Below are positions 2,042 to 34,229 of a DNA stretch of 64,000 nt, piece by piece. Every line of letters begins with the position of its first letter. The first letter of the stretch is position 1. The position numbers were made by a program, and so were the translations under genes. The stretch covers positions 1,984,001-2,048,000 of the forward strand of contig NZ_AP018664.1 of assembly GCF_003967075.1 (NCBI RefSeq). The letters are read 5' to 3'. The notes beneath the pieces are model-generated. The model saw only the letters and a program-made list of their open reading frames with translations. It was not told the DNA's origin and made no database searches. This DNA comes from Sphingobium amiense. GTDB lineage: Bacteria > Pseudomonadota > Alphaproteobacteria > Sphingomonadales > Sphingomonadaceae.

Positions 2042-3340
2042 ATGGATATTCTGCAGGAGCGTAACGCAGACGGCGACCGGGACGACCTGGCCTATCTGGA
2101 CGGCGAAGGCGTCGATCCGCAGCCTCCTTCGGCTATTTCGGAAGAACGGCGCATGCAGGTTCGCGCCTATAATTACTGGGCGTCCCTGCTGGGCGATCGC
2201 GCGCTGCCGTCGATCGAGGATCTTTCGCCGGACGAACTGGAGGATTTCGGTCCCTATGCCGTGCTGCTGGATTTCAGCGCCGGGATCGACAACCCCGCCA
2301 TCGTCTATCTGGGAACGGCGCTTCGCGAGGAATGCGGTGTCGACGGCACCATCGCCTATATCGACGATGTTCCGGCCCGGTCGCTGCTGTCGCGGCTGAC
2401 CGATCATTATCTCCAGATCATCGCCAATGCCGCGCCCATCGGGTTCGAGGCTGAGTTCGTCAACCAGCGCAATGCCGAGATCATGTATCGCGGCATCCTG
2501 ATGCCCTTTTCTTCCGACGACGAGACGATTGATTTCGTGTTCGGCGTCATCAACTGGAAGGAAGTGGCGAGCCACGACATGATGCAGGCTCTGGAGGCGG
2601 AAGTGGGCGAAGCGCTGCGCACCGCGCCGATGCCGCATTCCGCCGTGCCGATCTGGGCGGATGGCCCGGCCGGGTCGATGATGGCCGACGGTGAGGAAGA
2701 CTCGCTGGACGAACTCGATCTGTCCGGCATGGAGTGTCCGCAGGAGGATGCGTCGCTGGCCGACTGGCTGGCGCTGGCGCGAGAGGGTGCAGCGCGGGTG
2801 CGCATCTCGGAGGCGCGCAGCCATGCTGCGCTCTATCGCGCGGTCAGTCTCTCCTATGATTTCGCTCTGGTCGCACGGGCGCGCCCTGCCGACTATGCCG
2901 AGTTGCTGCACGATTATGGCGTCAAGGCGCAGGCCCGCAGCCCGATGACCGCGATCATCAAGCTGGTTTTCGGCGCCACTTACGACAAGACCCGCATCAC
3001 CGAATATGCAACGGCGCTCGACCATGCGATGCGCCGCGATCTCGAAGTCGGAACGCTGGCGGAATATCTTGGCGCGTATAAGGGCGGGCTGAAGGCGCTT
3101 GTGTCGGAGGAGCGCGCTCTGCGCCGGTCGCATCAGACAGCGAAGCCGGATCGCGCCACGGTCGCGCGCCGCGCCATGCGCGCCGCTCCTCCGCTGGCCG
3201 CCGCTGCCATCGGCACCGATGAAGACGGGCTGGCCGTCGTCGTCGCCCGGCGCGAAGCGGACGGCAGCCTTTCCATCGTGGCGGCTCTGCCGGAAGGATC
3301 GGATCTTGGCCGGAAAGTCATGATCGCGTCGGCGAAATAG
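2042..3340 (+). CDS. PAS-domain (PAS_5-type) sensory protein
   Basis: The protein has about 432 residues and is predicted to be cytoplasmic, with no signal peptide or membrane segment. Its N-terminal part contains a pattern like the alphaproteobacterial PAS_5 family: an aromatic-rich YNYWASLLGDRALPS segment, then SPDELEDFGPYAVLLDF and IVYLGTALREE. This suggests a small-molecule or redox sensing fold. The C-terminal half is alpha-helical and unrecognised; it has no histidine kinase, GGDEF or HTH signature that I can see. It stands alone between tRNA-Thr and the glutamate dehydrogenase gene. I chose the ATG at 2042; an in-frame GTG at 2024 is possible and neither has a strong ribosome binding site. 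The partner or output is unknown. Confidence 0.7.
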   Translation: MDILQERNADGDRDDLAYLDGEGVDPQPPSAISEERRMQVRAYNYWASLLGDRALPSIEDLSPDELEDFGPYAVLLDFSAGIDNPAIVYLGTALREECGVDGTIAYIDDVPARSLLSRLTDHYLQIIANAAPIGFEAEFVNQRNAEIMYRGILMPFSSDDETIDFVFGVINWKEVASHDMMQALEAEVGEALRTAPMPHSAVPIWADGPAGSMMADGEEDSLDELDLSGMECPQEDASLADWLALAREGAARVRISEARSHAALYRAVSLSYDFALVARARPADYAELLHDYGVKAQARSPMTAIIKLVFGATYDKTRITEYATALDHAMRRDLEVGTLAEYLGAYKGGLKALVSEERALRRSHQTAKPDRATVARRAMRAAPPLAAAAIGTDEDGLAVVVARREADGSLSIVAALPEGSDLGRKVMIASAK

Positions 3341-11608: not shown

Positions 11609-12475
11609 ATGGGGACGAGCTGGTCCGCGCAGATCGTCGATCCGCCGGAAGAATGCGCCGCGACGATCGAAACCGTGCTGGCGCGCGTCATCGACCAGAT
11701 GAGCAACTGGGAAGCGGACTCGGCGATCAGCCGGTTCAACCGGACGCCGGTCGGGGAATGGATGGCGCTCCCCCGCGACATGCTGACGGTATTGGGAGCG
11801 GCGCTGGAGGTCGCGCGGCTTTCGGATGGCGCGTTCGATCCCGCAGTGGGGCGGATGGTCGCTGCATGGGGGTTTGGGCCGGGGACGGCCGATGCAGCGC
11901 CCGCCACGGGACGGGCGCATCCATGGACCGCGATCGAAATGGGCGACGAACGGGCCAGACGTCTGGCCGATGTCGCGCTCGATTTTTCGGGCATCGCCAA
12001 GGGATTTGCCGTCGATGCCGTCGCCGAAGCGCTACGCGGCATCGGTGTCGACAATGGGCTGGTGGAGATCGGCGGCGAGCTGCGCGGGATCGGTGTGAAG
12101 CCCGACATCCAGCCCTGGTGGGTCGATATGGAAACGCCCCCCGACATCGCCGTCCCGCCGCTTCGCGTGGCGCTGAGCGGCCTCGCGGTGGCGACGTCGG
12201 GCGATTACCGGCGCTTTCGGGTGGCGCAGGGGCGGAGGCTGTCGCATAATATCGACCCTGCGACGGGAGAGCCTGTCGTCGATTCCCTCGCCTCCGTGAC
12301 GGTGCTGCACGACAGCGCGATGATGGCCGATGCATGGGCGACCGCGATCCTCGTGTCGGGCGCAGGGCGCGGTATGGCGCTGGCCCAGCGGCACGGGCTG
12401 GCAGCGCGGCTGATCGAACGCGCGCCCCTGCCCCGCGAGCATCTCAGCCCGGCGCTCGCCGCGATGCTGGATTGA
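11609..12475 (+). CDS. apbE: ApbE-type FAD:protein FMN transferase
   Basis: ApbE transfers FMN from FAD to a threonine of target proteins; here the DUF2271 protein two genes upstream carries the target motif. Family blocks are clear: GGETMGTSWSAQI around the start, NWEADSAISRFN, SDGAFDPAVGRMVAAWGFG, DFSGIAKGFAVDAVAE, EIGGELRGIG, and HNIDPATGEPV with SVTVLHDSAMMADAWATAI, which holds metal and FAD ligands. The first ATG (11609) cuts into the conserved GGETMGTSW block. The same frame stays open upstream through RIAIAPGLSPDIFVARRR to a CTG at 11498 that overlaps the preceding stop (CTGA), so the true protein is probably about 37 residues longer with a non-ATG start. No signal peptide is evident in either version. 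Confidence 0.9.
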   Translation: MGTSWSAQIVDPPEECAATIETVLARVIDQMSNWEADSAISRFNRTPVGEWMALPRDMLTVLGAALEVARLSDGAFDPAVGRMVAAWGFGPGTADAAPATGRAHPWTAIEMGDERARRLADVALDFSGIAKGFAVDAVAEALRGIGVDNGLVEIGGELRGIGVKPDIQPWWVDMETPPDIAVPPLRVALSGLAVATSGDYRRFRVAQGRRLSHNIDPATGEPVVDSLASVTVLHDSAMMADAWATAILVSGAGRGMALAQRHGLAARLIERAPLPREHLSPALAAMLD

Positions 12476-12485
12476 GGCGCACCCC

Positions 12486-12521
12486 AAAAAGAAACCCCGC
12501 CGGAGATGTCTCACGGCGGGG
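12486..12521 (-). terminator. Rho-independent terminator of glpK / small RNA A
   Basis: On the minus strand the stem CCCCGCCG (12521-12514) pairs with CGGCGGGG (12502-12495) over an 11-nt loop and is followed by TTTCTTTTT (12494-12486). It terminates both the candidate RNA and the glpK message. Confidence 0.8.
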
Positions 12522-12562
12522 CCAGGTTCAGGGAGGTGTCACTCCAAAGGGGAAAGAGTGAC
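12486..12562 (-). ncRNA. Candidate double-hairpin small RNA, copy A (downstream of glpK)
   Basis: Read on the minus strand from 12562, a 7-bp hairpin (GTCACTC/GAGTGAC, C-rich loop TTTCCCCTTTG) is followed by a linker containing CCTCCCTGAACC. A second hairpin follows (CCCCGCCG/CGGCGGGG), then TTTCTTTTT. A sigma70-like promoter sits exactly upstream (TTGATT, 16-nt spacer, TATATT), and its predicted +1 is the first G of the first hairpin. The same order of parts recurs at 21367-21437 with near-identical sequence. Length is about 77 nt. The C-rich loop and CCTCCC linker could base-pair with ribosome binding sites. The RNA family is not one I can name. Confidence 0.6.
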
Positions 12563-12568
12563 AAAGCC

Positions 12569-12596
12569 AATATAGACAGGCTGCATGAACAATCAA
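12569..12596 (-). promoter_or_regulatory. Sigma70-like promoter for candidate small RNA A
   Basis: On the minus strand TTGATT (12596-12591) and TATATT (12574-12569) are separated by 16 nt. The expected start point is 12562, exactly the first base of the first hairpin. It lies in the 74 bp between the glpK stop and the RNA, so the RNA need not depend on glpK transcription. Confidence 0.5.
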
Positions 12597-12635
12597 TGAC
12601 CGGATCATGCCCATTTATCCACGAGGACGAACAGG

Positions 12636-14120
12636 TCAGCGCGGTGCCGGTCCGTCGAGCTGATGCCCCAGCCCCTGCCGCCAGAAGGCGATGCGGGCGG
12701 CACGCGTCTCTTCAGCCATCGCCGGGTCGAAACGGGCGGCGGCGCTGCCCATGGACGCCGCTTCGGCAAGGCTCCGGTGAAGCCCCGCGCCCACGCTGGC
12801 CAGCATGGCGGCCCCCAGCGCCGTGGTTTCGGTATCGGCGGGCCGCTCGACCGGAATGGCGAGGATGTCCGCCAGATCCTGCGCCATCCAGTTGTTGACG
12901 CTCATGCCGCCGTCGATGCGCAGCTTCGACCAGTCCGCCCCGTCCGCCGCGAAAGCGGCCTGAAGATCATGGGCCTGATGCGTAAGCGATTCCATGGCGG
13001 CGCGCACGATATGCGCGCGCTTCGTCCCCAGCGTCAGCCCGGTGATGGCCCCCTTCGCATCGGGCCGCCAGTGCGGCGCGCCAAGCCCGGCGAGTGCGGG
13101 GAGAAACTGCACCCCTGCGCTGTCGGGCACCGAGGCCGCGAGCGCTTCGCTTTCCCCGGCATATTGGATGATGCCCAGCTCATCGCGGAGCCATTTGATG
13201 AGGCTGCCCGCGACGAAGATCGAGCCTTCCAGCGCGTAGATGCGCTTGCCCGACGCCTGATACAGCACGGTGCCGAGCAGCCGGTGCGCCGATGCGGGCA
13301 GGCTCTCCCCCATATTGGTGAGGATGAAGGCGCCTGTGCCGAATGTCGCTTTCGTATCGCCCGGCGTCAGGCAATTCTGGCCGATGGAGGCCGCCTGCTG
13401 ATCGCCCGCAAGGCCGCAGATCGGAATAGGGGCACCGAGGATCGCGGGATTGCAGGTGCCGAAATGGCCGTAATTGTCCACGACCTGCGGCAGCGCGCGC
13501 CGCGTCACACCGAACAGGTCCAGCAAATCCTCATCCCAATCGGCTCCGTCGAGCGCCAGCAACTGCGTGCGGCTGGCGTTGCTGGCGTCGCTGATATGAA
13601 GGCCACCGGTCAGTTTCCACACCAGCCAGCTTTCCACCGTGCCGAAAGCGAGCCGGTCGCCCAGTTCGCGCGCCTGCGGCACATGATCAAGGATCCAGCG
13701 CATCTTGCTGGCGGAAAAATAGGGATCGAGGATAAGGCCGGTGCGCGCCTGCACCCGCTCCTCATGCCCTTCTTCCCGCAAACGGGTGCAGAAGGGTGCG
13801 GTGCGGCGGTCCTGCCACACAATAGCGCGGGTGATCGGCTCGCCTGTCCCCCGGTCCCAGGCGACGACGGTTTCGCGCTGGTTGGTGATGCCGAGCGCCG
13901 CGATGCGATCCGCGCCGCCCGCTGCCGCGACGGCTTCGCGCACACAGGCCAGCGTTCGGGTCCAGATTTCGGCGGCGTCATGCTCGACCCGGCCGGGCTG
14001 TGGATAATATTGCGTCAGTTCCTGCTGCGCGACATGCATCGCCCTGCCGTCGGGGGTATAAACAATGGCGCGTGTCGATGTGGTGCCTTCGTCGAGGACG
14101 AGAATATGGTCCGCGCTCAC
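12636..14120 (-). CDS. glpK: Glycerol kinase
   Basis: The enzyme phosphorylates glycerol to sn-glycerol 3-phosphate with ATP in the cytosol. At 494 residues it has normal family length. Visible FGGY-kinase blocks are the N-terminal phosphate loop (VLDEGTTSTRAIVY), GITNQRETVVAWDRGTG, VWQDRRTAPFC, the SKMRWILDHVP segment, CGLAGDQQAASIGQ, KATFGTGAFILTN and RIDGGMSVNNWMAQ near the C-terminus. Its start overlaps the glpD stop by 4 nt (ATGA), so the two are translationally coupled and act in sequence. No glycerol facilitator gene is visible here. A terminator and candidate small RNA follow. Confidence 0.97.
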   Translation of the reverse strand: MSADHILVLDEGTTSTRAIVYTPDGRAMHVAQQELTQYYPQPGRVEHDAAEIWTRTLACVREAVAAAGGADRIAALGITNQRETVVAWDRGTGEPITRAIVWQDRRTAPFCTRLREEGHEERVQARTGLILDPYFSASKMRWILDHVPQARELGDRLAFGTVESWLVWKLTGGLHISDASNASRTQLLALDGADWDEDLLDLFGVTRRALPQVVDNYGHFGTCNPAILGAPIPICGLAGDQQAASIGQNCLTPGDTKATFGTGAFILTNMGESLPASAHRLLGTVLYQASGKRIYALEGSIFVAGSLIKWLRDELGIIQYAGESEALAASVPDSAGVQFLPALAGLGAPHWRPDAKGAITGLTLGTKRAHIVRAAMESLTHQAHDLQAAFAADGADWSKLRIDGGMSVNNWMAQDLADILAIPVERPADTETTALGAAMLASVGAGLHRSLAEAASMGSAAARFDPAMAEETRAARIAFWRQGLGHQLDGPAPR

Positions 14121-15610
14121 GCCGCTTCCCCCAGATAATGTTTCAGCGTTTCGACCTGTTCTGCCGTCAGGCGGAGGCCGAGCTTGGTGCGCCGCCAGAG
14201 GATGTCATCGACCGTCCGCGCCCATTCGTGGCTGCGCAGATAGTCGACTTCCGCGCGGGTCAGGCCATGGCCGAAATGGGCGCCAAGATCAGCCAGCGAA
14301 CGCGCCTCCCCCAGCCAGCGCCGCGCCCGCGTGCCATAGGCGCGCGCGATCCGGTCCACGCTCGCCGCGTCGAGAAAGGGATAGTCGCGGGCAAGGCCGC
14401 CCTTCAGCGCGTCGATCCCGTCCATGGCAAAATCGCCGCCCGGCAGCGGCGCGGTCGCGGTCCAGTCGCCTCCCGACAGAGCCGGGACGTGCGGCTTCAG
14501 TCGCTCCACCGCTTCGTTCGCAAGGTGGCGGTAAGTGGTGATCTTGCCGCCGAACACGGAGAGCAGGGGCGCGCCGCCCGCTTCGTTCAGGTCCAGCTCG
14601 AAACTATAGCCGCGCGTTGCCGCTTCGGGTTTGCCCGATCCATCGTCGATCAGCGGGCGCACACCGGAATAGGTCCAGACGATATCGGCGGGCGTGATCG
14701 CCTTCTCGAAGTAGGCGTTCGCCGCATCGCAGAGATAGGCGATCTCTTCCTCGCTCGCGTGAACATCCCTGAGCGATCCGTGATGGTCGCGGTCGGTGGT
14801 GCCGATCAGCGTGAAGTCGCGCTCATAGGGAATGGCGAAGAAGATGCGGCCATCGGGGATTTGGAAGAAATAGGCGTAGGGGTGGTCGAACAGGCGCGGG
14901 ACGACGATGTGCGACCCGCGCACCAGCCGCATATGCCTGTCGGTCTGCTCGTGCGCCTTGCAGAGCAGGTCGAGCACCGCAGGGCCGGCGGCATTGACGA
15001 CAGCGCGTGCGCGGAAGCTGCGGTCGCCGCTGCGGATCAGCCACCCTTCTCCGCCATGCTCCAGCGCGTCCACAGGCGTACGCGTCAGGACCGTGGCGCC
15101 CCTGTCCGCCGCGTCGCGCGCGTTGAGGATCACGAGCCGGGCGTCGTCCACCCATCCGTCCGAATAGATGAAGGCCGGGCCGAAACCGGACTTGAGCGGA
15201 GTGCCAGCGGCGTGGCGGCGGAGATCGACCGCCTGCGTCGCGGGCAACCGCGTGCGCCCGCCAATATGATCGTAGAGGAAGAGGCCGAGCCGCAGCAGCC
15301 AGCGCGGGCGAAGACCCTTCACATACGGCAGGACGAAGCGCATCGGCCGGATGATGTGCGGCGCGATGGCCCAGAGCCGCTCCCGTTCCGAAAGGGCTTC
15401 GCGCACGAGACCGAACTCATAATGTTCGAGGTAGCGCAGGCCGCCGTGGATCAGCTTGGTCGAGGCGGAGGAGGTGCCGCTGGCGAGGTCGCCCTGTTCC
15501 AGCAGCAGGACGCGCGCGCCCCGGCCCGCCGCATCGCGCGCGATACCGCACCCGTTGACGCCGCCTCCGATGACGGCAAGGTCATATGTCTCGTCGGCTC
15601 TCTCGTTCAT
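14117..15610 (-). CDS. glpD: Aerobic glycerol-3-phosphate dehydrogenase
   Basis: GlpD is a peripheral inner-membrane flavoenzyme that oxidises glycerol 3-phosphate to dihydroxyacetone phosphate and feeds electrons to quinone. The 497-residue protein starts with an FAD-binding Rossmann motif (YDLAVIGGGVNGCGIARDAA), followed by the DAO-family block TSSASTKLIHGGLRYLEHYE, VVNAAGPAVLDLLC, TLIGTTDRDHHG and VFGGKITTYRHLANEAVE. The C-terminal extension is typical of bacterial GlpD. I chose the ATG at 15610; an in-frame ATG at 15625 is possible and neither has an obvious ribosome binding site. It overlaps glpK by 4 nt and starts only 51 nt after the GH130 gene, so all four minus-strand genes may be cotranscribed. 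Confidence 0.96.
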   Translation of the reverse strand: MNERADETYDLAVIGGGVNGCGIARDAAGRGARVLLLEQGDLASGTSSASTKLIHGGLRYLEHYEFGLVREALSERERLWAIAPHIIRPMRFVLPYVKGLRPRWLLRLGLFLYDHIGGRTRLPATQAVDLRRHAAGTPLKSGFGPAFIYSDGWVDDARLVILNARDAADRGATVLTRTPVDALEHGGEGWLIRSGDRSFRARAVVNAAGPAVLDLLCKAHEQTDRHMRLVRGSHIVVPRLFDHPYAYFFQIPDGRIFFAIPYERDFTLIGTTDRDHHGSLRDVHASEEEIAYLCDAANAYFEKAITPADIVWTYSGVRPLIDDGSGKPEAATRGYSFELDLNEAGGAPLLSVFGGKITTYRHLANEAVERLKPHVPALSGGDWTATAPLPGGDFAMDGIDALKGGLARDYPFLDAASVDRIARAYGTRARRWLGEARSLADLGAHFGHGLTRAEVDYLRSHEWARTVDDILWRRTKLGLRLTAEQVETLKHYLGEAA

Positions 15611-15661
15611 GCGGCACCGTCGCATTCACTAACCGCTTGCGGTGGGGCGGGCAAATGGACG

Positions 15662-16786
15662 CTAGGCCTCGCGGAACCGCCGCTTGTCGATATGGGTGAT
15701 CCGGCAGGCAAGGTCCGCCTCCCCCGACGCAACGATATAATGATCGCCAGCATCGACGATCCCGGTCGTGAACACCACATCGCGCACATAGACCTGATGC
15801 TCCAGCGGCCCGATGAGATCGGCGTCGGGTTCGATCAGCGCTTTATGATCGGTGCGGATCACCCTGGCGGGATCGTCCCGGTCGAGCAGCGACCAGTAGG
15901 TGCGGTATGTCCCGACCGACTCATTGGGTTCGACCCCGTGCCAGAGCGTCAGCCAGCCTTCCTCCGTCAGGATCGGCGGCGCGCCCCCGCCCATGCGCGC
16001 GGTCGCGAGAGTCGCGGCATGGGGACGGATGCCGGGCTTTTCATGCGGTTTCCAGAAACGCGCATCGGGCGACAAAGCGAGGTTGATGGACGGCCCCGCG
16101 CGCCACTCGCTGCCCGGCGGATAGGCGAAATAGACGTCGCCCAGGGGCCGGGTCTGCGCCCAGTAATGACCGTCGATCAGTCCTTCGAAAATCAGCATGT
16201 CCTTGTTCTGGTGATCGAGCGCGATCCCTTCATACCGCCAGTCCAGAGCATTGCGGGAACTGTAAATGGTGGAACATTGGCGTTCGGGGCTGACCGAACA
16301 GGTGGTCATGAACCAGCGGTCGTCCACGCGGCTGATGCGCGGGTCTTCCACGCCGTAGCATTGCGCGCTGCGGGACGGCGTGATGGCGCGGTCATAGTGG
16401 AAGGCGACGACATCGAGACCGTCGGGCGACATTTCCACCGGGAGCAGCCATGACAGCGAGGTGAGGCCCATCACCTTCCACCCCGCACTCATCATGCGGA
16501 AGGTGCGCGGATCGCTGATGTCCACATCGTCCAGCGGCCACGCGTCGAGCACATAGCCCGCGTCGCTCCACCGGATCGCATGGACATGCCCGTCCCACAC
16601 CGGATCGCGCAGCGCCTCGGCGACGCGCACCATCAGCAGCAGGTTGCCGTTGGGCAGGCGGGTCAGGCCCGGATTGAAGGCGCCCAGCACATAGGTCGGC
16701 GCATCCACCTTCCCTGCCAGCGGCGACCGGCCAAGGTCTATGACGTCCGGCGTCAGGACCAGACTGTCCTTGAGGATATGGCTCAT
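15662..16786 (-). CDS. GH130-family glycoside phosphorylase/hydrolase (first copy)
   Basis: The 374-residue protein has the five-bladed propeller pattern of GH130, a family dominated by beta-mannoside phosphorylases. Blocks seen are FNPGLTRLPNGNLLLMVRVAE, YGVEDPRISRVDDRWFMT (the family's acidic catalytic region), a metal- or phosphate-site-like region around RPHAATLATARMGGGAPPI, TEEGWLTLWHGVE, YWSLLDRDDPARVI and VYVRDVVFTTGIVDAGDHY. It has no signal peptide, so it acts in the cytosol. It overlaps the SDR gene by 4 nt and precedes glpD by 51 nt. Whether it is a phosphorylase or a hydrolase, and its sugar, cannot be told from sequence alone. Confidence 0.85.
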   Translation of the reverse strand: MSHILKDSLVLTPDVIDLGRSPLAGKVDAPTYVLGAFNPGLTRLPNGNLLLMVRVAEALRDPVWDGHVHAIRWSDAGYVLDAWPLDDVDISDPRTFRMMSAGWKVMGLTSLSWLLPVEMSPDGLDVVAFHYDRAITPSRSAQCYGVEDPRISRVDDRWFMTTCSVSPERQCSTIYSSRNALDWRYEGIALDHQNKDMLIFEGLIDGHYWAQTRPLGDVYFAYPPGSEWRAGPSINLALSPDARFWKPHEKPGIRPHAATLATARMGGGAPPILTEEGWLTLWHGVEPNESVGTYRTYWSLLDRDDPARVIRTDHKALIEPDADLIGPLEHQVYVRDVVFTTGIVDAGDHYIVASGEADLACRITHIDKRRFREA

Positions 16787-17538
16787 TCGCGCTCCAATAG
16801 CGGTTCGACGCGGATCAGCGACAGGGCCGCGCGGCGCGGCTGGGTCAGCATGGTGCGCACGGCGACGGCGATGTCCTGCCCGCGCAGCATCCTGTTCTCC
16901 GCGATCAGGGCGGCCTGTTCGTCGGCCGGAAGTTCGGGATAGTGGAAGTCCGCTCCGGTGAAGCCCGGCTCCACCAGCCCCACCTTGATGTCGCGCCCGG
17001 CGACTTCCTTCCGCAGCACCTGCGCGAAGGCTTCGATCCCGGCCTTCGCCGCGACGTAGATGGAACCGCCGGGGTTGCGGGAAACGGCGGACATGGAGCC
17101 GATGAACACAAGATCGCTCCCTCCTTCCATGACCCCGACCGCCTTGTGCGCGGTTAGGAGATAAGCGGTGAAATCGACGGCGATCCTGTAGCGCAGATGG
17201 CTGGCCTCACTCTCTGCCAGTGCGCCTGCCGGAACCGCAGCGTTGGCAATGACGATGTCGGGCGCGCCGAAATAACCCTGCGCGGCTTTGAAGACCCGGT
17301 CGACGCCGTCGGGATCTGCCAAGTCGAGCGAGATGCCGTCGCCCGTTCCCACCTCCCCGATCCGCGCCAACGCGTCGGCAAGATGTTCAGGCGTCCGGCC
17401 GCAGATGAACACGTCCACGCCTTCGCTCGCCAGCAGGACAGCGATGGCGCGACCGATGCCTGTCGTCCCGCCGGTGATAAGCGCCCTGCGGCCTTTCAGC
17501 GACGGACAGGCGGTATGCGCGTCGGATAAATCGGTCAT
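16783..17538 (-). CDS. Short-chain dehydrogenase/reductase
   Basis: This is a classical SDR of 251 residues. The NAD(P)-binding motif is TGGTTGIG (about residues 22-29), followed by NAAV, the catalytic Ser in FIGSMSAV and YVAAK (Tyr and Lys). The Arg in ICGRTPEH after beta-2 hints at NADP preference. It is the first gene of the minus-strand arm and overlaps the GH130 gene by 4 nt (ATGA), which points to a shared role such as oxidation or reduction of a sugar or polyol. It is divergent from the glycosyltransferase gene about 90 bp away, so one intergenic region probably controls both arms. The substrate is unknown. Confidence 0.9.
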   Translation of the reverse strand: MTDLSDAHTACPSLKGRRALITGGTTGIGRAIAVLLASEGVDVFICGRTPEHLADALARIGEVGTGDGISLDLADPDGVDRVFKAAQGYFGAPDIVIANAAVPAGALAESEASHLRYRIAVDFTAYLLTAHKAVGVMEGGSDLVFIGSMSAVSRNPGGSIYVAAKAGIEAFAQVLRKEVAGRDIKVGLVEPGFTGADFHYPELPADEQAALIAENRMLRGQDIAVAVRTMLTQPRRAALSLIRVEPLLERE

Positions 17539-17631
17539 GCCTGCCCCTGATCGTGGTTGCGCAGCGACAACGCGCCATGCCGGTGCGCGTTGCAGCAGAA
17601 TCTTTTCACCGGAAGACAGGAAGATGTTTCG

Positions 17632-20016
17632 ATGCTGCTGCGCAGCAACTTTTGCGGCCCGTATGAGTTAACCAACCGCGATCCTCCGCCTGCGTTTCGC
17701 GCGGGCCGCATCAACAAGGAAATGTTCATGAAGCGTGGCGCGCTGTGCGACGAGGTGCCTGGGGTGGGACACATAGCTCTCATCGGGAACAGCGTTCCCC
17801 GCCGTTGCGGCATCGCCACCTTCACCACCCATTGCCATGATGCGATGAAGCAGGCTTTTCCGTCGCTGCGCATCGACCTTTACGCCATGGACAATGGCGC
17901 CGACGGCATCGTCTATCCCGATAACATCCACGTGATCGCACAGGACGATGTAGCCGCCTATTCCGAAGCCGCCGCCCGGATCGAGGATAGCGGCGCAAAG
18001 GCGATCTGGCTCCAGCATGAATTCGGCATCTTCGGCGGCCCGGCGGGCGACCTGATCCTGCGGCTACTCGACCGCACAAAGCTGCCGCTGGTCGTGACGC
18101 TGCACACGATTTCCGATGCGCCAAGCGCGGATGAGCGCCGCGTGATGGACCAGATTCTGCGCCGCGCCAGCCGCATCATCGTCATGGCTGGACGAGGGCG
18201 GGACATCCTCATCAGCGACTATGGCGTCGATCCCGCAATCGTCGCCGTCATCCCACACGGCGTTCCTGATCGTCCCTACGTCGAACCGGCGACGATGAAA
18301 CCCCGCTTCGGATGGGACGGGCACAAGGTCATCCTGACATTCGGCCTGCTCGCGCCCGACAAGGGCATCGACCAGATGATCCGCGCCATGCCCGCCGTCG
18401 TGGCGGCCCACCCCGACGCGCTCTATGTCATCATGGGAGCAACCCATCCCAATCTCGTCCGCGAACAGGGCGAGAGACTACGAGATGGGTTGAAAACTCT
18501 GGCGGCGCAACTGGGCGTTGCGGGCAATATCCGTTTCGTCGATACCTATATCGAACAGGAGGAATTGCTCGATTTCCTTCAGGCAGCGGACATTTACGTG
18601 ACCCCTTACGTCAACCCTGCACAGGTCGTGTCGGGAACGCTCAGCTATGCGCTCGGCATGGGCAAGCCTGTCGTTTCGACACCTTATGTGCAGGCCATCG
18701 AAGTGCTGGCGGAGGAACGCGGCGTCGTAGTCCCCTTCCGCGATCCAAAAGCGCTGGGGCTGGAAATTGTGCGGCTGCTGTCTGACGACGCGGTGCTCGA
18801 CGGCCATGCGCGCCGCGCCTATGCCTGTGGCCGGGCGATGATCTGGAGCGAGCTTGCGCACAATGTCGGCGGGCTGCTGAGCGCGGCCTGTGCCGGAGCG
18901 CCGGCGCGGTTCAGCCCGCGCCGCAGTTATGCGCTCCTGAAACCGGACATTCGGTCGATCGTGCGGATGAGCGATTCCACGGGCATGTTGCAGCATGGCA
19001 TCCTGTCCGTTCCCGACCGCAACCATGGCTATTGCATCGACGACAATGCGCGCGCACTGATGCTGATGGTGCAGGCAACCGAAGTCGCCGCGGACGAGCG
19101 AGACCGCTGGTCGGGCGTGTACGCCGCCTTCATCCAGCATGGCTGGAATCCGGATATCCAGCGCTTTCGCAACTTCATGAGTTTCGACCGCCGCTGGCTG
19201 GAAGAGAAAGGGTCCGAAGACAGCAACGGGCGCACGCTCTGGGCGCTGGGCGTCACCATGCGCGAAGCGGCGCAGACTCCCATCGGCGAATGGGCGCGCA
19301 GGCTGTTCAACACGGCGGTGGAGCCGCTGTCGGCGCTCGGGTCGCCGCGGGCGCGCGCCTTTGCGATGCTCGGGGCGGCGGCTGTGCTGGAGGTCGATCC
19401 GGATCATCGCGCGGCTCGCACCATCCTCACCAGCTTTGCTGACGCTTTGATGGCTCTGCCCTATGCGCCGCAGCCTCCGTCATGGGTCTGGTTCGAGGAC
19501 GTGTTGGCCTATGACAATGCGCGACTGCCCGAAGCGCTGCTGCGTGCGGGGCGGATACTGAAGCGCGACGACATGATACGGCGCGGCCTTTCAAGGCTCC
19601 GCTGGCTTTGCGGGCAGCAACGCTCACCCGAGGGGCATTTCCGCGCGGTCGGATCGGAAAGCTTCGGGCGCCCCGGCAAGCCGCCCCTCCCCTATGACCA
19701 ACAGCCTCTGGAAGCATTGGCTACAGTGGAAGCGGCGATTGCCGCGCATGCCGTCGATCCGAAGGGTGGCTGGCTGGCGCAGGCGGAATCGGCCTATCGC
19801 TGGTTTTTGGGGCAAAATGACCTCGACACGCCGCTCGCCACGCCGTTCAACCAGGGTTGTTACGATGGCCTGACACCGGGTGGCCCCAACCTCAATCAGG
19901 GAGCGGAATCACTTTTGGCCCTGCAACTTGCATCCTGCGCTATGAACCGTATCGTTGGGCTGCTATCAGGCGGCGAAGTGACGCACAATTCGGACAAGCC
20001 CTCCGTTTCTGCCTGA
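17632..20016 (+). CDS. Two-domain GT4 glycosyltransferase with C-terminal helical domain
   Basis: The protein has about 794 residues. The N-terminal half is a GT4/GT-B glycosyltransferase: IALIGNSVPRRCGIATFT, WLQHEFGIFGGPAGD, IPHGVPD, LTFGLLAPDKGIDQMIRAMP, FLQAADIYVTPYVNPAQVVSGTLSYALGMGKPVVSTPY with the nucleotide-sugar glutamate region. The C-terminal half (from about residue 430) begins VRMSDSTGMLQHGILSVPDR and contains YCIDDNARALML. It looks like an alpha/alpha-barrel domain of the kind found in carbohydrate-active enzymes. It starts the plus-strand arm and is 21 nt from a second GH130 gene. The start is uncertain: ATG 17632 (AGGAAG upstream), 17722 or 17728 (AAGGAA upstream). The donor and acceptor are unknown; mannose is plausible from the GH130 neighbours. 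Confidence 0.85.
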   Translation: MLLRSNFCGPYELTNRDPPPAFRAGRINKEMFMKRGALCDEVPGVGHIALIGNSVPRRCGIATFTTHCHDAMKQAFPSLRIDLYAMDNGADGIVYPDNIHVIAQDDVAAYSEAAARIEDSGAKAIWLQHEFGIFGGPAGDLILRLLDRTKLPLVVTLHTISDAPSADERRVMDQILRRASRIIVMAGRGRDILISDYGVDPAIVAVIPHGVPDRPYVEPATMKPRFGWDGHKVILTFGLLAPDKGIDQMIRAMPAVVAAHPDALYVIMGATHPNLVREQGERLRDGLKTLAAQLGVAGNIRFVDTYIEQEELLDFLQAADIYVTPYVNPAQVVSGTLSYALGMGKPVVSTPYVQAIEVLAEERGVVVPFRDPKALGLEIVRLLSDDAVLDGHARRAYACGRAMIWSELAHNVGGLLSAACAGAPARFSPRRSYALLKPDIRSIVRMSDSTGMLQHGILSVPDRNHGYCIDDNARALMLMVQATEVAADERDRWSGVYAAFIQHGWNPDIQRFRNFMSFDRRWLEEKGSEDSNGRTLWALGVTMREAAQTPIGEWARRLFNTAVEPLSALGSPRARAFAMLGAAAVLEVDPDHRAARTILTSFADALMALPYAPQPPSWVWFEDVLAYDNARLPEALLRAGRILKRDDMIRRGLSRLRWLCGQQRSPEGHFRAVGSESFGRPGKPPLPYDQQPLEALATVEAAIAAHAVDPKGGWLAQAESAYRWFLGQNDLDTPLATPFNQGCYDGLTPGGPNLNQGAESLLALQLASCAMNRIVGLLSGGEVTHNSDKPSVSA

Positions 20017-20037
20017 AGCGGAGGAGCACAGGACTGC

Positions 20038-21324
20038 ATGCCGCAAAAAATCAACGCGCTTCCGCTTCGTCTCACGGCCGATCCTACCCGTGTGGTCGTG
20101 AGGCCCTTTCACCTTGCTTTGCAGGGCGCACGAGGCGCGCCGAGCCGGACGCAGCGCATTACCGAAGCCGTGCTCGCCCTGTCGGACTCAGAAGTGATGA
20201 GGGGTCTGAACCATGTGCTTGTCGGGTTTGAGGCGCGCCACTGGCAGATGCGGCGCGTGTTCAAGACGCGCTTTCAAGACATCGCCCATCGCCTGATGAT
20301 CGACCCCGACAGCATCGGGGACGAACGGTCACAACTGATCGGCGCCTATTTCTGTCACGAATATAGCTATGCCGCGGCGGCGCTGATGAACCCGAGCGTC
20401 GTCCCTCATCCCGACCAGAGCGGCCTGTCGCGCGGCAATATGCGCATCGTCATGTCGCTGCGCGCGGTGGGCGAAGGGCACATCAGTTCCATCGCCTTTC
20501 GCGAGGGGATCATATCGCAGGACGGCGATCTGCACCTCGCGCCCGAGCCGCCTTTCGCCACCGCCGCCGACTTCCACGGCGACGAGGAGCAGGACAAGGT
20601 CGGGCCGGTCAGGATCTATCGCCATGCCGACAGCAACCTGTCAGGCACGGTGATCTTCCCGATCACAGCGGCGCAGGCCAAGGGCCTTGAGGATCTGCGC
20701 CTCGTCGCCTTTACCCATGACGATGGCACGCGCGAATGGCTGGGCACCTACACCGCCTATAACGGGCGTGAAATCCAGTCTGAGATGATGCGGACCAGCG
20801 ATTTCCGCAGCTTCCAGCTTTGCCCCCTGTCGGGCAGCGCGGCGCGCAACAAGGGCATGGCGCTGTTCCCGCGCAAGGTGAACGGCCGCTACATGATGAT
20901 CGGGCGGCAGGACGGCGAAAATCTTTACCTCATTCAGTCGGACGACCTGCTGGACTGGGGCGAAGGGCAGCGCATCCTGACGCCGCTTCACCCTTGGGAA
21001 CTGGTCCAGATCGGCAATTGCGGCGCGCCCATCGAACTGGACGAAGGCTGGCTGCTGCTGACGCATGGCGTCGGCGCGATGCGGGAATATTCCATCGGCG
21101 CGGTGCTGCTGGACAAGGCGAACCCCGCCAGAGTGCTGGCGCGGTCGAGCCAGCCGATCCTCGCCGCGTCGGAAGACGAGCGCGAAGGCTATGTCCCCAA
21201 TGTGGTCTACACCTGCGGCGCAACGAGGATCGGCGACCAGATTTTCATGCCCTATGGCGTCGCCGACAGCAGCGTCGCCTTCGCCTTCGTCGGCATATCC
21301 GAGATGCTGTCCTTGATGGTGTGA
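20038..21324 (+). CDS. GH130-family glycoside phosphorylase/hydrolase (second copy)
   Basis: The 428-residue protein is longer than the first GH130 and only distantly similar to it. An N-terminal helical extension (about 110 residues, RITEAVLALSDSEVMRGLNH) precedes the propeller. Core motifs are YAAAALMNPSVVPHPDQ, MRIVMSLRAVGEGHISSI, GLEDLRLVAF, KGMALFPRKVNGRYMMIGRQD, GNCGAPIELDEGWLLLTHGV and GYVPNVVYTCGATRI. The layout with an N-terminal helical region resembles the long GH130 phosphorylases that act on beta-1,2-mannan-type chains; this is a family analogy, not proof. It follows the glycosyltransferase gene by 21 nt and is followed by the second double-hairpin RNA and terminator. Confidence 0.85.
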   Translation: MPQKINALPLRLTADPTRVVVRPFHLALQGARGAPSRTQRITEAVLALSDSEVMRGLNHVLVGFEARHWQMRRVFKTRFQDIAHRLMIDPDSIGDERSQLIGAYFCHEYSYAAAALMNPSVVPHPDQSGLSRGNMRIVMSLRAVGEGHISSIAFREGIISQDGDLHLAPEPPFATAADFHGDEEQDKVGPVRIYRHADSNLSGTVIFPITAAQAKGLEDLRLVAFTHDDGTREWLGTYTAYNGREIQSEMMRTSDFRSFQLCPLSGSAARNKGMALFPRKVNGRYMMIGRQDGENLYLIQSDDLLDWGEGQRILTPLHPWELVQIGNCGAPIELDEGWLLLTHGVGAMREYSIGAVLLDKANPARVLARSSQPILAASEDEREGYVPNVVYTCGATRIGDQIFMPYGVADSSVAFAFVGISEMLSLMV

Positions 21325-21366
21325 ATTTCCGTGACGGGTCCGGCACGCGCGCGCCGTCCTTCCCGT

Positions 21367-21437
21367 GTCACTCTTCCCCCCGGAGTGACCCTGAACCTCG
21401 GCCCCGCCGTGAGCATCGCTCCGGCGGGGTTGTTTTT
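21367..21437 (+). ncRNA. Candidate double-hairpin small RNA, copy B (downstream of GH130)
   Basis: Same architecture as the element at 12486-12562 but on the plus strand: hairpin GTCACTC/GAGTGAC (21367-21389) with a C-rich loop, linker CCTGAACCTCGG, hairpin CCCCGCCG/CGGCGGGG (21402-21429), then TTGTTTTT. No convincing promoter is visible in the 42 bp after the GH130 stop, so this copy may be released from the 3' UTR of that mRNA. Conservation of both hairpins, the linker motif CCTGAACCT and the order argues for a functional RNA rather than two unrelated terminators. Confidence 0.55.
21402..21437 (+). terminator. Rho-independent terminator of the GT-GH130 arm
   Basis: CCCCGCCG (21402-21409) pairs with CGGCGGGG (21422-21429) over a 12-nt loop and is followed by TTGTTTTT. 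It separates the GH130 gene from the convergent transporter gene. Confidence 0.82.
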
Positions 21438-21448
21438 GGCGGGTTCGG

Positions 21449-22753
21449 CTAATCCTCGACGATTGCGCTCTGGCGGCGCGTGTCGCGCATCCGCAGATAG
21501 ACGATCAGCGAAATCGCGATCATCGCGGTCACATACCAGTAGAAACCCCGCTCCCACCCGGCATCCTTAAAGCGCAGCGCCACATATTCGGCCGTCCCGC
21601 CGAAGATCGTGTTGGCGAGTGCATAGGGCAGCGCCACGCCCAGCGCGCGGATATGCGCGGGAAACATCTCCGCCTTCACCACCGCGTTGATGGAAGTATA
21701 GCCCGTCACGATGACGAGACCGCCCAGCACGAGCAGGAAGGCCGTCACCGGATCGCGCGTGGTTTCGAGCGCGGCGAACAGCGGATAGGTGCAGAGCACG
21801 CCGAGCACGCCGAAGCTTACCAGCAGCGGCTTGCGCCCCACCCTGTCGCTCAGGGCGCCCGCCAGCGGTTGCAGCAGCATGAAGAGGAACAGCGTGCCGC
21901 CATTGATGCGCGAAGCTGTCTCACGGTCGAAGCCGCTCGTATTGACGAGGAATTTCTGCATGTAGATCGAATAGGCGTAGAAGGCGAGCGTGCCGCCCGC
22001 CGTCATCATCAGGACCGTGAACGCCTCGCGCGGGTGATGGCGGAACAGCGCGGTCATGCTCGACCGGGGCGCGTCGCTGCCGCTCGCGTTGCGGAAGCTT
22101 TCGGTTTCGGAAAGGCCGCGGCGAATCCAGAACACCACCACCGCCAGCGCCGCGCCGATGGCGAAGGGGATACGCCAGCCCCACACATCGAGCGCCGCTT
22201 CGCCCAGCATCGTCTGCAGCGCGAGCAGCACCCCGATCGCCAGCAATTGCCCGCCGATCAGCGTCACATACTGAAAAGACGAAAAGAAACCGCGCCGCCC
22301 CGCTCCGGCCATTTCGGACAGGTAAGTTGCGCTCGCGCCATATTCGCCGCCGATTGAAAGCCCCTGCATCAGCCGCGCCAGAATCAGCAGTGCCGGCGCG
22401 AGCAGGCCGGCACTTTCATAGGTCGGGGACACCGCGACCAGCAGCGATCCCGCACACATCAGTGTGACGGACAGCGCGAGGCCGCTCTTGCGCCCCCTCC
22501 GGTCGGCGTAGATTCCCATGATCCATGCGCCGAGCGGCCGCATGAAGAAGCCGACCGCAAACACGGCCGCAGCCCCCAGCAACTGCGCGGTCTTGTCCCC
22601 GGACGGAAAGAAATGGGGCGCGAAATAGAGGGTGAACGCCGCATAGGCATACCAGTCATACCATTCGACGAGATTGCCCGTCGATCCGCCGATGATCGCC
22701 TTCGCCCGCTCCCGCGCGGTCGGGCTGGATGGCGTCGGAGACGGTGCGGTCAT
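21449..22753 (-). CDS. MHS-family MFS transporter (KgtP/PcaT-like)
   Basis: The 434-residue, roughly 12-helix permease belongs to the metabolite:H+ symporter branch of the major facilitator superfamily. The signature N-terminus is STGNLVEWYDWYAYAAF. The loop 2-3 motif is GIYADRRGRKSGLALSV, and there is LARLMQGLSIGGEYGASATYLSEMA, characteristic of the family that moves organic acids such as 2-oxoglutarate, citrate or aromatic acids. A second MFS motif appears as GALSDRVGRKPLLV. The ATG at 22753 matches the usual family start; the frame stays open far upstream into the LysR gene but that part is not protein-like. It lies downstream of the LysR gene on the same strand and next to a catabolic operon, so it is probably the substrate or product transporter. 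Confidence 0.9.
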   Translation of the reverse strand: MTAPSPTPSSPTARERAKAIIGGSTGNLVEWYDWYAYAAFTLYFAPHFFPSGDKTAQLLGAAAVFAVGFFMRPLGAWIMGIYADRRGRKSGLALSVTLMCAGSLLVAVSPTYESAGLLAPALLILARLMQGLSIGGEYGASATYLSEMAGAGRRGFFSSFQYVTLIGGQLLAIGVLLALQTMLGEAALDVWGWRIPFAIGAALAVVVFWIRRGLSETESFRNASGSDAPRSSMTALFRHHPREAFTVLMMTAGGTLAFYAYSIYMQKFLVNTSGFDRETASRINGGTLFLFMLLQPLAGALSDRVGRKPLLVSFGVLGVLCTYPLFAALETTRDPVTAFLLVLGGLVIVTGYTSINAVVKAEMFPAHIRALGVALPYALANTIFGGTAEYVALRFKDAGWERGFYWYVTAMIAISLIVYLRMRDTRRQSAIVED

Positions 22754-22863
22754 GCTAAGCGGCGTTCCGTGCAGGAAGAGGTCGGGACAAAGGAAATCAG
22801 GGCGACCTCCGGTTTGGCGAAACGGCTGGCATCGCGCAAGGGCGCACGGTCCTTCGCCGACGC

Positions 22864-23760
22864 CTATCTCTCGACGGCGCTCCTCAACTGCTCCCGCAGC
22901 CAGGTGAGGCCGGGATCGGCTGCGCGCGCCTGATGATATTGCATCATTTCCTGCATCACCGGCAAAGCCATCGGAGGCTCCATGATCCGCAGCGGCAGCG
23001 CCCGTGCCATCACCTGCGCGAGCCGTTCGTGCATCAGGGCCAGCCGTGACGTGCCCGGCAGCATCCATCCGACCTGACTGAAAGCGGCGCATACGATCTC
23101 GATCCGCCGCCGGTCGCCATGGTCGCGCAGATGGTTGTCGATGAAGGTGCCGTCGCGAGAGACGCTGACGGTGACGTGTCCGGCCCGATGATAGACCTCC
23201 TCCGTCAGCCCGTCCCGGATCAGGGGATTGCCGGACCAGCCGACAACGACATGCCTTTCCTCGAACAGCAGTTCCCTGGGATGCGGTCCTTCCAGAAAGC
23301 GCTCGGGCGATACGATCAGGTCGATGTCGCCATCCTCCAGCCGTTCGGCGATATCGTTGCGCGGCAGGGTGATCTCCAGCCGCACATTCGGCGCGATCTT
23401 TTCGAGGCGTTCGACCAATGGGCCGATGAGGACCGTGGTGACATAATCCGACGCCACGATCCGGAAAAGGCGCTGACTGTCGGCGGGATTGAATGTGAGC
23501 CCTCGTGCGATCAGCCCGCGCAGGTCGGCGACGAGCGCGGAAATTTCGGGCGCCAGCGACAGGGCCGCGGCCGTGGGAAACATCTTCTTCCCATGCTGGA
23601 CGAGGATGTCGTCGGCAAAGGCTTCGCGCAAACGCCGCAGCGCCGCACTCATCGCCGACTGCGTCAGGTTGAGCCGCCGCGCCGCGCGCGTCACATTCCG
23701 TTCCTCGACCAGAATGTCGAAGGCAACGAGCAGATTGAGATCGAAGCGGTCCAGCCTCAT
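22864..23760 (-). CDS. LysR-family transcriptional regulator
   Basis: The protein has about 298 residues. The N-terminal winged helix reads RFDLNLLVAFDILVEERNVTRAARRLNLTQSAMSAALRRLRE, which is close to the NodD/PcaQ-like LysR style. An effector-binding domain follows (LFRIVASDYVTTVLIGPLVERL, DIDLIVSPERF). It is divergent from the nine-gene operon starting at 23877 and is probably its activator, responding to the pathway substrate or an intermediate. The ATG at 23760 is chosen; a TTG lies one codon upstream. The MFS gene follows 110 bp downstream in the same direction. Confidence 0.93.
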   Translation of the reverse strand: MRLDRFDLNLLVAFDILVEERNVTRAARRLNLTQSAMSAALRRLREAFADDILVQHGKKMFPTAAALSLAPEISALVADLRGLIARGLTFNPADSQRLFRIVASDYVTTVLIGPLVERLEKIAPNVRLEITLPRNDIAERLEDGDIDLIVSPERFLEGPHPRELLFEERHVVVGWSGNPLIRDGLTEEVYHRAGHVTVSVSRDGTFIDNHLRDHGDRRRIEIVCAAFSQVGWMLPGTSRLALMHERLAQVMARALPLRIMEPPMALPVMQEMMQYHQARAADPGLTWLREQLRSAVER

Positions 23761-23777
23761 CAATCATCACTTTCATT

Positions 23778-32351: not shown

Positions 32352-34229
32352 TCACCAGCCGAAGACATATCTCTCGCGGCGGACATCCGCGCCGCCGCGC
32401 AGGGTGCCTGTGCCGGGCACGACGCCGGCCGCGACGATGCCGGTCGACACGCCGAACGGACCCAGCACATCGAGCTTATGCCCCCGCGCCGACAGATCGT
32501 CGCGCACCTGTGCGGGAACGCGATCCTCGATCTCCAGCACACCTGGTTCGTCCTTCTTGATTCCGAAGGAGCCGTGGAAATGGTTGGAATTGATGCGCGG
32601 CGCTTCAATGGCGGCCTGAAGCGGCTGGCCGAAAGCGAGAACGCGCAGCAGGACGTTCATGATCTGCTGATCCTGATTGTCCCCGCCCGGCGTGCCGATG
32701 GCGAGGAACGGCGCGCCGTCCTTCATGACGATGCAGGGGGAGAGCGTCGTGCGCGGCCGCTTGCCGGGAGCGAGCACATTGGGGCTGTCGGGGTCCAGAT
32801 CGAAAACGGTCATGCGATTGCTCATCGGCACACCCGTGTTGCCGGGGATATAGGCGCCGCCCAGCATCCAGCCCGAACTGGGCGTGCAACTGAAAAGATT
32901 GCCGTCCCGGTCCACCACTTCGATCGCGGTCGTGTCGGCGGTCGGGCGCGGCGGCGCCTTGAGCATATGGGGTGTGAAGACGGGCGTGGTGCGCGCCTTG
33001 CCCTCATAGGCCCATGGGTCGCCATAGCGATGGTCGAGCGAGGCGCGGCTGGCGATCTGCGCCGCGCGGGCGGCGGCGTAGCTTTTCGACAGCAGCCCCT
33101 TCGCCGGAACGGTCGCGAAATCGGGATCGCCGAAATACATGTTGCGATCGTCGAAGGCGAGCTTGATGGATTCCGCGACGATGTGGAGATAATCGGCCGA
33201 CCCCGGCTCCATGGACACGATGCCCGCCGCCTCGGCGATGGCGAGCGCCATGAGCATGGCTGGCCCCTGACTCCAGAAACCGCCCTTACAGACGTCATAG
33301 CCAAAGATGCGGGCAGTGGCGGGCGCTTCGACCTTGCCCTTGTAGCGCGCCAAATCCTCGTATCGCATCAGGCCGCCGTCCCGCTCCATCGCCGCGCCGA
33401 TGCGCCGGGCGATGTCGCCCTTGTAGAAAGCGTCGCGCCCCGCCTGGATCGCGGCCTTGCGATCCTTGGCTTTGGCGAACGCCGCCGCATCGGCATCGGC
33501 GATGATCCGCATCGTGCGGGCGAGATTGGGCTGGCGGAAGATTTCGCCGGTGCGGGGCGGCTGTCCGCCGGGATAATAGGCGGCATAAGCATCCGCCCAT
33601 TTAGACGTCGCCTTCTGCTGGCTGACAAAGACTTCGGCGAGGAAATTATACATGACGAAACCGTCCGCCAGTTCGATGGCGGGCTGCATCACCTGATGCA
33701 GGGTCATGGTGCCGTTAAGTTGCAGAGCAAGCGCCATCGCATCGACCATGGCCGGAATAGTGCCGCCATTGGGACCGTTGCCGGGGATCACGCCCGCCGC
33801 GGCGAACCGGGCGGGCGTCGCGAGTGCGGGCGCCGTCCCCTGCCCGTTCACGACCGAGACCTTTTTCGCCTTCGCGTCATAGATGATGGTCGGTGCTTCT
33901 CCGCCGAAGCCGAAGTGGGAAATTTCGGTGACAGCGGCGGCGAACACGGCGGCGACACCTGCGTCGGTGGCGTTGCCGCCAGCCATCAAAATGCGCGTCC
34001 CGGCAGCCACCGCATAATGGCGGCCCGCCGCGACAATGCCGAAACTGCCGACGATTTCAGGCCGGAGGGTTTCTCCCGCACTCACCAATCTGGTTGGTTC
34101 TATCGCCGCTTTCGGTGCCGCCGCGGTTTGCCCGCCCGCTCTTCCCTCCAATCCGGTTACAACCGCCCCAGCCATGGCTAGAGCGGCAAGCTCGCGGCGG
34201 GAAACCCTGTTTTCCGGCCTTTCGGTCAT
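32352..34229 (-). CDS. Gamma-glutamyltransferase-family protein (first copy)
   Basis: The 625-residue N-terminal nucleophile (Ntn) hydrolase belongs to the GGT family. The N-terminus (SRRELAALAMAGAVVTGL) looks like a twin-arginine signal. The large subunit includes ATDAGVAAVFAAAVTE and GGGEAP-like FGFGGEAPTIIYDA. Autocleavage should occur before the first Thr of DTTAIEVVDRDGN (about T433), giving large and small subunits. The small subunit has TLSPCIVMKDGAPFLAIGTPGGDNQ, the family's oxyanion and substrate region. The arginine that binds the gamma-glutamyl carboxylate in the E. coli enzyme is not obvious, so it may act on other gamma-glutamyl or cephalosporin-like amides. It converges on the catabolic operon and is divergent from the 1047-aa TonB receptor. 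Confidence 0.92.
   Translation of the reverse strand: MTERPENRVSRRELAALAMAGAVVTGLEGRAGGQTAAAPKAAIEPTRLVSAGETLRPEIVGSFGIVAAGRHYAVAAGTRILMAGGNATDAGVAAVFAAAVTEISHFGFGGEAPTIIYDAKAKKVSVVNGQGTAPALATPARFAAAGVIPGNGPNGGTIPAMVDAMALALQLNGTMTLHQVMQPAIELADGFVMYNFLAEVFVSQQKATSKWADAYAAYYPGGQPPRTGEIFRQPNLARTMRIIADADAAAFAKAKDRKAAIQAGRDAFYKGDIARRIGAAMERDGGLMRYEDLARYKGKVEAPATARIFGYDVCKGGFWSQGPAMLMALAIAEAAGIVSMEPGSADYLHIVAESIKLAFDDRNMYFGDPDFATVPAKGLLSKSYAAARAAQIASRASLDHRYGDPWAYEGKARTTPVFTPHMLKAPPRPTADTTAIEVVDRDGNLFSCTPSSGWMLGGAYIPGNTGVPMSNRMTVFDLDPDSPNVLAPGKRPRTTLSPCIVMKDGAPFLAIGTPGGDNQDQQIMNVLLRVLAFGQPLQAAIEAPRINSNHFHGSFGIKKDEPGVLEIEDRVPAQVRDDLSARGHKLDVLGPFGVSTGIVAAGVVPGTGTLRGGADVRRERYVFGW

Follow-up and report, generated by a model that had tools for sequence, protein, structure and literature searches.

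In the genome of Sphingobium amiense, two divergent gene arms with a GH130-family gene on one side and a glycerol kinase-like gene on the other are each followed by a short, hairpin-rich module. This arrangement raises two questions, namely what kind of element the modules represent and whether they serve the genes that they flank. The window analyzed here (the whole stretch of 64,000 nt) had been described in a first-pass annotation as containing two homologous double-hairpin RNAs, and both were recovered at the places given for them by an independent covariance model (termed R1). The modules, their parts and their neighbors are:

11609..12475, plus strand: ApbE-family gene (PF02424), convergent with copy A
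12486..12562, minus strand: predicted sRNA copy A, 77 nt (hairpin 1, linker, terminator hairpin, U-tract); R1 90.3 bits, E 5.5e-22
12486-12492, minus strand: U-tract of copy A, following the terminator hairpin (fold)
12493..12523, minus strand: terminator hairpin of copy A (fold; covariation of helix 2)
12524..12537, minus strand: linker of copy A, ACCUCCCUGAACCU, putative seed (unpaired in the fold; most constant part of the alignment)
12538..12562, minus strand: hairpin 1 of copy A, loop with UUUCCCCUUU (fold; helix covariation)
12636..14120, minus strand: FGGY-family carbohydrate kinase gene, glycerol kinase-like (PF00370, PF02782), upstream neighbor of copy A
20038..21324, plus strand: GH130-family gene (PF04041), upstream neighbor of copy B
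21367..21437, plus strand: copy B, 71 nt, the same module with a short linker and without a promoter; R1 match 21367-21438, 65.3 bits, E 2.3e-15
21390..21398, plus strand: linker of copy B, CCUGAACCU, 5 bases shorter than that of copy A (R1 alignment)
21449..23776, minus strand: sugar/MFS transporter ORF with an uncertain start (PF00083, PF07690), convergent with copy B

Both copies consist of a hairpin GTCACTC..GAGTGAC with a C-rich loop, a linker with CCTGAACCT, a second hairpin CCCCGCCG..CGGCGGGG and a U-tract. The proposal of a common linker holds for the motif CCTGAACCT, which occurs in both, but not for the linker as a whole (ACCTCCCTGAACCT in copy A, CCTGAACCT in copy B). The fold energy of each copy beats 200/200 dinucleotide shuffles (z -5.98 for A and -5.65 for B). 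A simple terminator scan with limits on loop and T-run detected none at copy A and merely a short inner stem at copy B, although a hairpin followed by a U-tract is visible in both folds. At the gathering threshold, Rfam models matched only one feature in the whole window, a tRNA, and the R1 search of the window returned nothing significant beyond copies A and B, the third listed match (E 0.57) being the antisense of the terminator of copy A.

Eight relatives from other genomes served as the seed of the R1 model, with both window copies excluded; they are a clean subset, used because several rows of the MAFFT alignment showed the 5' arm of hairpin 1 in the wrong place. The search for copies took the window and 79 loci (L180-L257 and L259), while L258, which repeats the window, was excluded. 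In a structural alignment of 81 rows (77 of them distinct), drawn mainly from the higher-scoring copies of the genus search, changes on both sides were found in 20 of 21 pairs, including all eight pairs of the hairpin 1 helix, although an alignment fitted to the model biases such counts towards the model. Paired cells amounted to 96.4%, compared with 42.1-51.0% when the partners were slid and 86.4% after shuffling. In a second set of 26 rows, mostly from other genera and including three weak matches that are probably due to chance, 17 of 21 pairs were changed on both sides and 96.2% of cells were paired. The most constant part of the alignment is the linker, which is single-stranded in the fold of copy A.

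Three matches to R1 stand out in the 4.77 Mb genome of S. amiense, i.e., copy A, copy B and a third, “core” copy with 53.1 bits; a fourth match is doubtful (E 0.065). Sphingobium genomes carry one to six copies each, and a match was obtained in 93 of 94 genomes and in all 83 of the good ones. Across the order, a match (E<=0.001, strict filters) was obtained in 182 of 296 genomes, which represent 51 of the 79 genera sampled. Among 15 copies printed from other genera, the linker CCUCCCUGAACCUUGGCCACC is nearly invariant while the stems vary; the module is preceded by an additional hairpin-like stretch that, by eye, is rich in C in most of these copies. As far as sequence is concerned, the first-pass annotation would have been undermined by a lack of compensatory changes or of conservation outside this strain; instead, both are present, in the 20 covarying pairs and the 93 genomes of the genus. 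A covarying family of putative sRNAs is real, is spread through the order and falls below every Rfam cut-off where tested.

The elements found upstream of copy A are:

12569..12574, minus strand: -10 element TATATT (promoter scan)
12585..12600, minus strand: 11-bp direct repeat GTCAT-TGATTG-TTCAT, putative response-regulator site (10/10 match at -38)
12591-12596, minus strand: TTGATT in the -35 position (promoter scan)

A sigma70-like promoter had been suggested at the start of copy A, and TTGATT-16-TATATT was indeed located just before hairpin 1 (one site, compared with 0.0 in shuffles, sd 0.2), with 6 nt between TATATT and the start of the hairpin. The same scan found no promoter-like site upstream of copy B. 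The repeat of copy A ends 10 nt before TATATT and recurs upstream of other copies in the genus. After reduction of 73 non-core upstream regions to 54 at 75% identity, with the eight core copies omitted, [GT]TCAT-N6-[GT]TCAT was detected before the -10 element at 9/10 or better in 31 of 54 regions (0.33% in mononucleotide shuffles) and as a perfect 10/10 repeat in 15 of them (0.04% in shuffles). Only a period of 11 works, as other periods from 6 to 17 give 0-4 regions, and the distance from the start of the repeat to the RNA is 38-39 nt in 27 of the 31 repeat-bearing regions. The remaining 23 regions lack it at this threshold, among them that of copy B, whose best match is 6/10, and by eye none of the eight core copies has such a repeat. 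Because several copies retain the repeat without TTGAA, it is more than a -35 hexamer. In the S. amiense genome, the repeat combined with a -10 element matches exactly at a single site, namely copy A, and with one mismatch at five others. A position weight matrix of the repeat scores copy A at 22.5 and the next site of the window at 11.7; in 552,601 bases, 44 sites scoring at least 14 lie by the RNA (the matrix's own training sites included) and 13 elsewhere. This shared 11-bp repeat is a new and testable point, and its presence before 31 of the 54 Sphingobium regions makes the questions of signal and regulator directly accessible to experiment. A conserved repeat of the form TTCAT-N6-TTCAA (ATTCATCGACNGTTCAACC), similar to the sRNA promoter box, was also observed in L243, L245, L248, L249, L253 and L256. 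There it is located close to the far side of the sapC gene group, in which the core copy is found.

With its promoter and repeat, copy A is most likely a regulated sRNA gene, whereas copy B is, by its sequence, a promoterless relative with a shortened putative seed. An alternative view would regard all copies as dispersed intrinsic terminators of the upstream genes that have an extra hairpin and encode no regulatory RNA. Copies A and B do lie shortly past a stop codon (73 nt after the FGGY kinase gene and 42 nt after the GH130 gene, respectively), each between convergent genes, and each has a strong hairpin with a U-tract; for copy B, with no promoter and a partial seed, this description fits well. 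A covarying second hairpin, a constant single-stranded linker and a promoter at a set distance would, however, all be superfluous in a terminator, and as an account of the whole family this explanation is unlikely.

Which regulator might act on the repeat can be narrowed down by its layout, which is that of a site for a response regulator of the PhoB/OmpR family, and such a site is predicted here. In E. coli, the sites of pstS, phoA and phoB are described in PMC10294691 as (T/G)TCA(T/C) half-sites with 11-bp spacing, and the sRNA repeat matches this PhoB box, copy A in full and the 31 regions at 9/10 or better. When scored with the sRNA matrix, the E. coli PhoB sites range from 1.0 to 17.4. 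The pst region of S. amiense was located via pstC, as the PstS model TIGR00975 gave no match; its promoter region (L298:5600-5640) carries TGTCAT, TGAAAC and TGTCAC at 11-bp steps, two of the three half-sites being good, and the best score of the matrix in this 14-kb stretch was 10.0. The CenR motif of Rhodobacter, given as TGA-N8-TGA in PMC9275681, contains the same core on the other strand and fits the reverse complement of the repeat equally well as the PhoB box fits the repeat itself. In the regions of tolQ, a CenR target named in that paper, the best sites reached 5.5 and 9.3 with the sRNA matrix. ChvI was rejected, since neither the TTGC-N3-GCAA consensus of Caulobacter nor the GCC repeats of S. 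meliloti fit (PMC9731502, in part).

Among known RNAs, the closest resemblance is to the alphaR8/suhB/MmgR family (RF00519), which includes SisA-D of Caulobacter and SuhB of Sphingopyxis granuli. A 5' hairpin, an unpaired stretch and a Rho-independent terminator within about 75 nt are found here as well, as are a single-stranded C-rich stretch with CCUCCCU and the presence of several siblings per genome. In the S. amiense genome, the RF00519 model scores copy A at 27.6 and the core copy at 39.3, short of the gathering cut-off of 41. Copy B is missing both from the matches with E up to 5 that were listed for its own stretch and from the 24 listed genome-wide (E<=10). Core copies reach E 0.05 in 14 of 24 loci scanned, the S. 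amiense core included (10 of 20 in one scan and 4 of 4 in another), and score 29.6 to 39.9 bits in these, the upper value being the best in the other genomes scanned; of 16 scanned A-type loci, one reaches E 0.05. Conversely, five separate RF00519 copies of the same genome exceed the cut-off, and R1 finds none of them. The single-stranded 10-mer UUUCCUCCCU reported for alphaR8 RNAs (PMC12559287) does not occur in copies A and B; copy A has ACACCUCCCU instead, with CCUCCCU in common, which copy B lacks, and the seed here runs on as GAACCU. AlphaR8 has been reported beside an N-formylglutamate amidohydrolase gene, whereas the core copy lies by sapC in the loci examined; no such amidohydrolase was found among 10 scanned neighbor proteins of core and RF00519 copies, which represent part of all neighbors. 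Since the RF00519 scores stay below the cut-off and R1 misses the five RF00519 copies, the family is regarded as a sister or look-alike of alphaR8 rather than a member. A C-rich hairpin loop and a GC-rich terminator are also shared with Burkholderia RNA 7/anti-hemB (RF02837), the Rfam model to which copy B scores highest (25.4 bits, about half of the cut-off of 49.5; copy A 17.2). In the searched subset of PMC, no description of the family was found, and papers on Zymomonas sRNAs gave no matchable sequence.

The genomic context differs between the core copy and all others. The eight core copies examined from the genus form one clade (support 100/100), and in 8/8 loci examined the core copy is located downstream of sapC, a label based on a neighbor protein cluster present in all eight loci, of which the two members scanned are SapC. 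In all five genus loci scanned (L008:1664-1735, L032, L035, L036, L038), the core copy has a tRNA gene no more than about 100 nt away. The non-core copies are dispersed, and the 81 copies fall into 32 context groups, even though the linkage used lumps some unrelated loci together. Matches also occur on four Sphingobium plasmid records, two of which were examined: pTK3 of Sphingobium sp. TKS (L331) and p1 of S. fuliginis KK22 (L332) each carry a variant copy (matches at 3001-3065) within a gene group, where a small ORF and a gene for an error-prone DNA polymerase flank it and a gene for DNA polymerase Y lies upstream of it. The copies in L187, L189 and L194 are located near a DUF3363 gene (assigned by Pfam for L189 and by a shared cluster for the others). 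This gene is presumably relaxase-like, and its proximity hints at carriage of copies by mobile elements.

The plasmid matches, the diverse contexts and the up to six copies per genome would also be expected of a REP- or MITE-like palindromic repeat that spreads by copying and has no function in the cell. Against such an element stand the single, fully supported clade of core copies with its conserved neighbors and the retention of the promoter repeat in 31 of 54 regions; in addition, phages gave no match at E<=0.01 and viral contigs no exact match to a 19-base pattern. A purely mobile repeat is therefore very unlikely.

The observations are best explained, and probably so, by a sphingomonad family of trans-acting sRNAs with an alphaR8-like architecture, in which copy A would be signal-controlled, copy B promoterless and the genes of the GH130/glycerol block incidental. 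In the predicted architecture, a 5' hairpin whose loop is rich in C is followed by an exposed seed that is likewise C-rich (CUCCCUGAACCU) and by a terminator. A response regulator of the OmpR/PhoB family would bind the repeat that overlaps the -35 position and thereby allow copy A to be transcribed into a discrete RNA some 77 nt long. Via its seed and loop, this RNA could pair with G-rich regions around the translation starts of distant mRNAs and block them, probably assisted by Hfq. Copy B would end the GH130 transcript and, at most, be cut out of its 3' untranslated region. Functions are known for related RNAs: SisA of Caulobacter represses many mRNAs via its seed and is sponged by CrfA (PMC12559287), SuhB of Sphingopyxis granuli lowers translation of thnR together with Hfq (PMC6563040), and MmgR limits storage granules in Sinorhizobium (PMC7143759).

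The search for such targets did not single out any mRNA. In the S. amiense genome, the only mismatch-free complements of the 13-base seed are those at copy A and at the core copy themselves, and with up to two mismatches 75 matches were obtained (52 for a reversed control), of which no target stands out; a possible start codon lies just downstream in 6 of 28 loci, each time inside or antisense to a longer called ORF. Taken as a group, start regions pair with the linker no better than random 50-mers do (-9.82 and -10.06, respectively), and the reversed linker performs better (-11.49); for the loop, start regions are slightly better (-5.92, compared with -5.28 for random and -5.82 for reversed sequences). 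ACAGGGG before ATG was considered as a target signature (71 occurrences and 7 for the reversed motif) and rejected, as some other NNAGGGG motifs are equal or better in the fetched loci; its enrichment is that of ordinary ribosome-binding sites. A leader AACAGGGG before ATG is common to the genes for a gamma-glutamyltranspeptidase (32352-34229, minus strand), a TonB-dependent receptor (34671-37814, plus strand) and an amidohydrolase (39761-42712, plus strand), and leaders of this type showed nothing special in the fetched loci.

Pairing with the ribosome-binding sites of flanking genes had been proposed as well. The loop of copy A can form eight contiguous pairs with the start region of the FGGY kinase gene, but the signal is weak, as 1.6% of 568 start regions do as well as this (-13.2) or better, and the trials covered several genes and two seeds. 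For the linker, the best start region of the window belongs to a gene outside the block; second of 39 is that of the first minus-arm gene, with an energy reached by 6.7% of the 568 start regions. The closest relatives of the GH130 gene are mostly from Sphingobium, and a search of 80 GH130 loci in named genomes did not detect the element at any of them (blastn E<=0.1 and covariance model E<=0.1; a regex scan also found none), although some of these loci end early at contig ends and a copy lying outside the fetched flanks would escape detection. The arm-end placement is thus most plausibly the result of two separate gains at the ends of genes.

Of the first-pass reading, the homologous RNA modules and, for copy A, a putative sRNA gene with its own promoter are supported; copy B has no promoter-like site. 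The two copies are 77.2% identical, and each has a nearer relative elsewhere (copy A in L220, 88.6%; copy B in L230, 84.4%), while a tree in which A and B were constrained together lies 3.77 log units above the free search (p-AU 0.59) and most forks of the copy tree are unresolved. That the pair coordinates the two divergent arms is the least probable of the explanations and highly improbable in itself: its position after the last gene of each arm, the eight loop pairs and the unrejected A+B clade are outweighed by the element-free GH130 loci, the commonness of such loop pairing, the missing promoter of copy B, the nearer relatives and the varied genes beside the copies elsewhere. Under the preferred reading of trans-acting sRNAs, the nearby sugar and glycerol genes are probably incidental to both copies.

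A wider scenario can be put forward tentatively, with somewhat less than even confidence. An order-wide sRNA, not found in Rfam or the searched papers, would have been copied repeatedly over the Sphingobium genome and its plasmids, and most of the extra copies would share one response-regulator promoter of the PhoB or CenR type. A single two-component signal could then fire species-specific sibling sRNAs with the same seed and different loops beside the core copy. The 51 genera in which the family was detected belong to the order in which the related SuhB of Sphingopyxis controls a catabolic pathway (PMC6563040, in part). Elsewhere in the window, the same 45-base stretch occurs three times on the minus strand (51843, 54462 and 57398), at distances of 2.6-2.9 kb, suggesting a set of repeated genes or domains.
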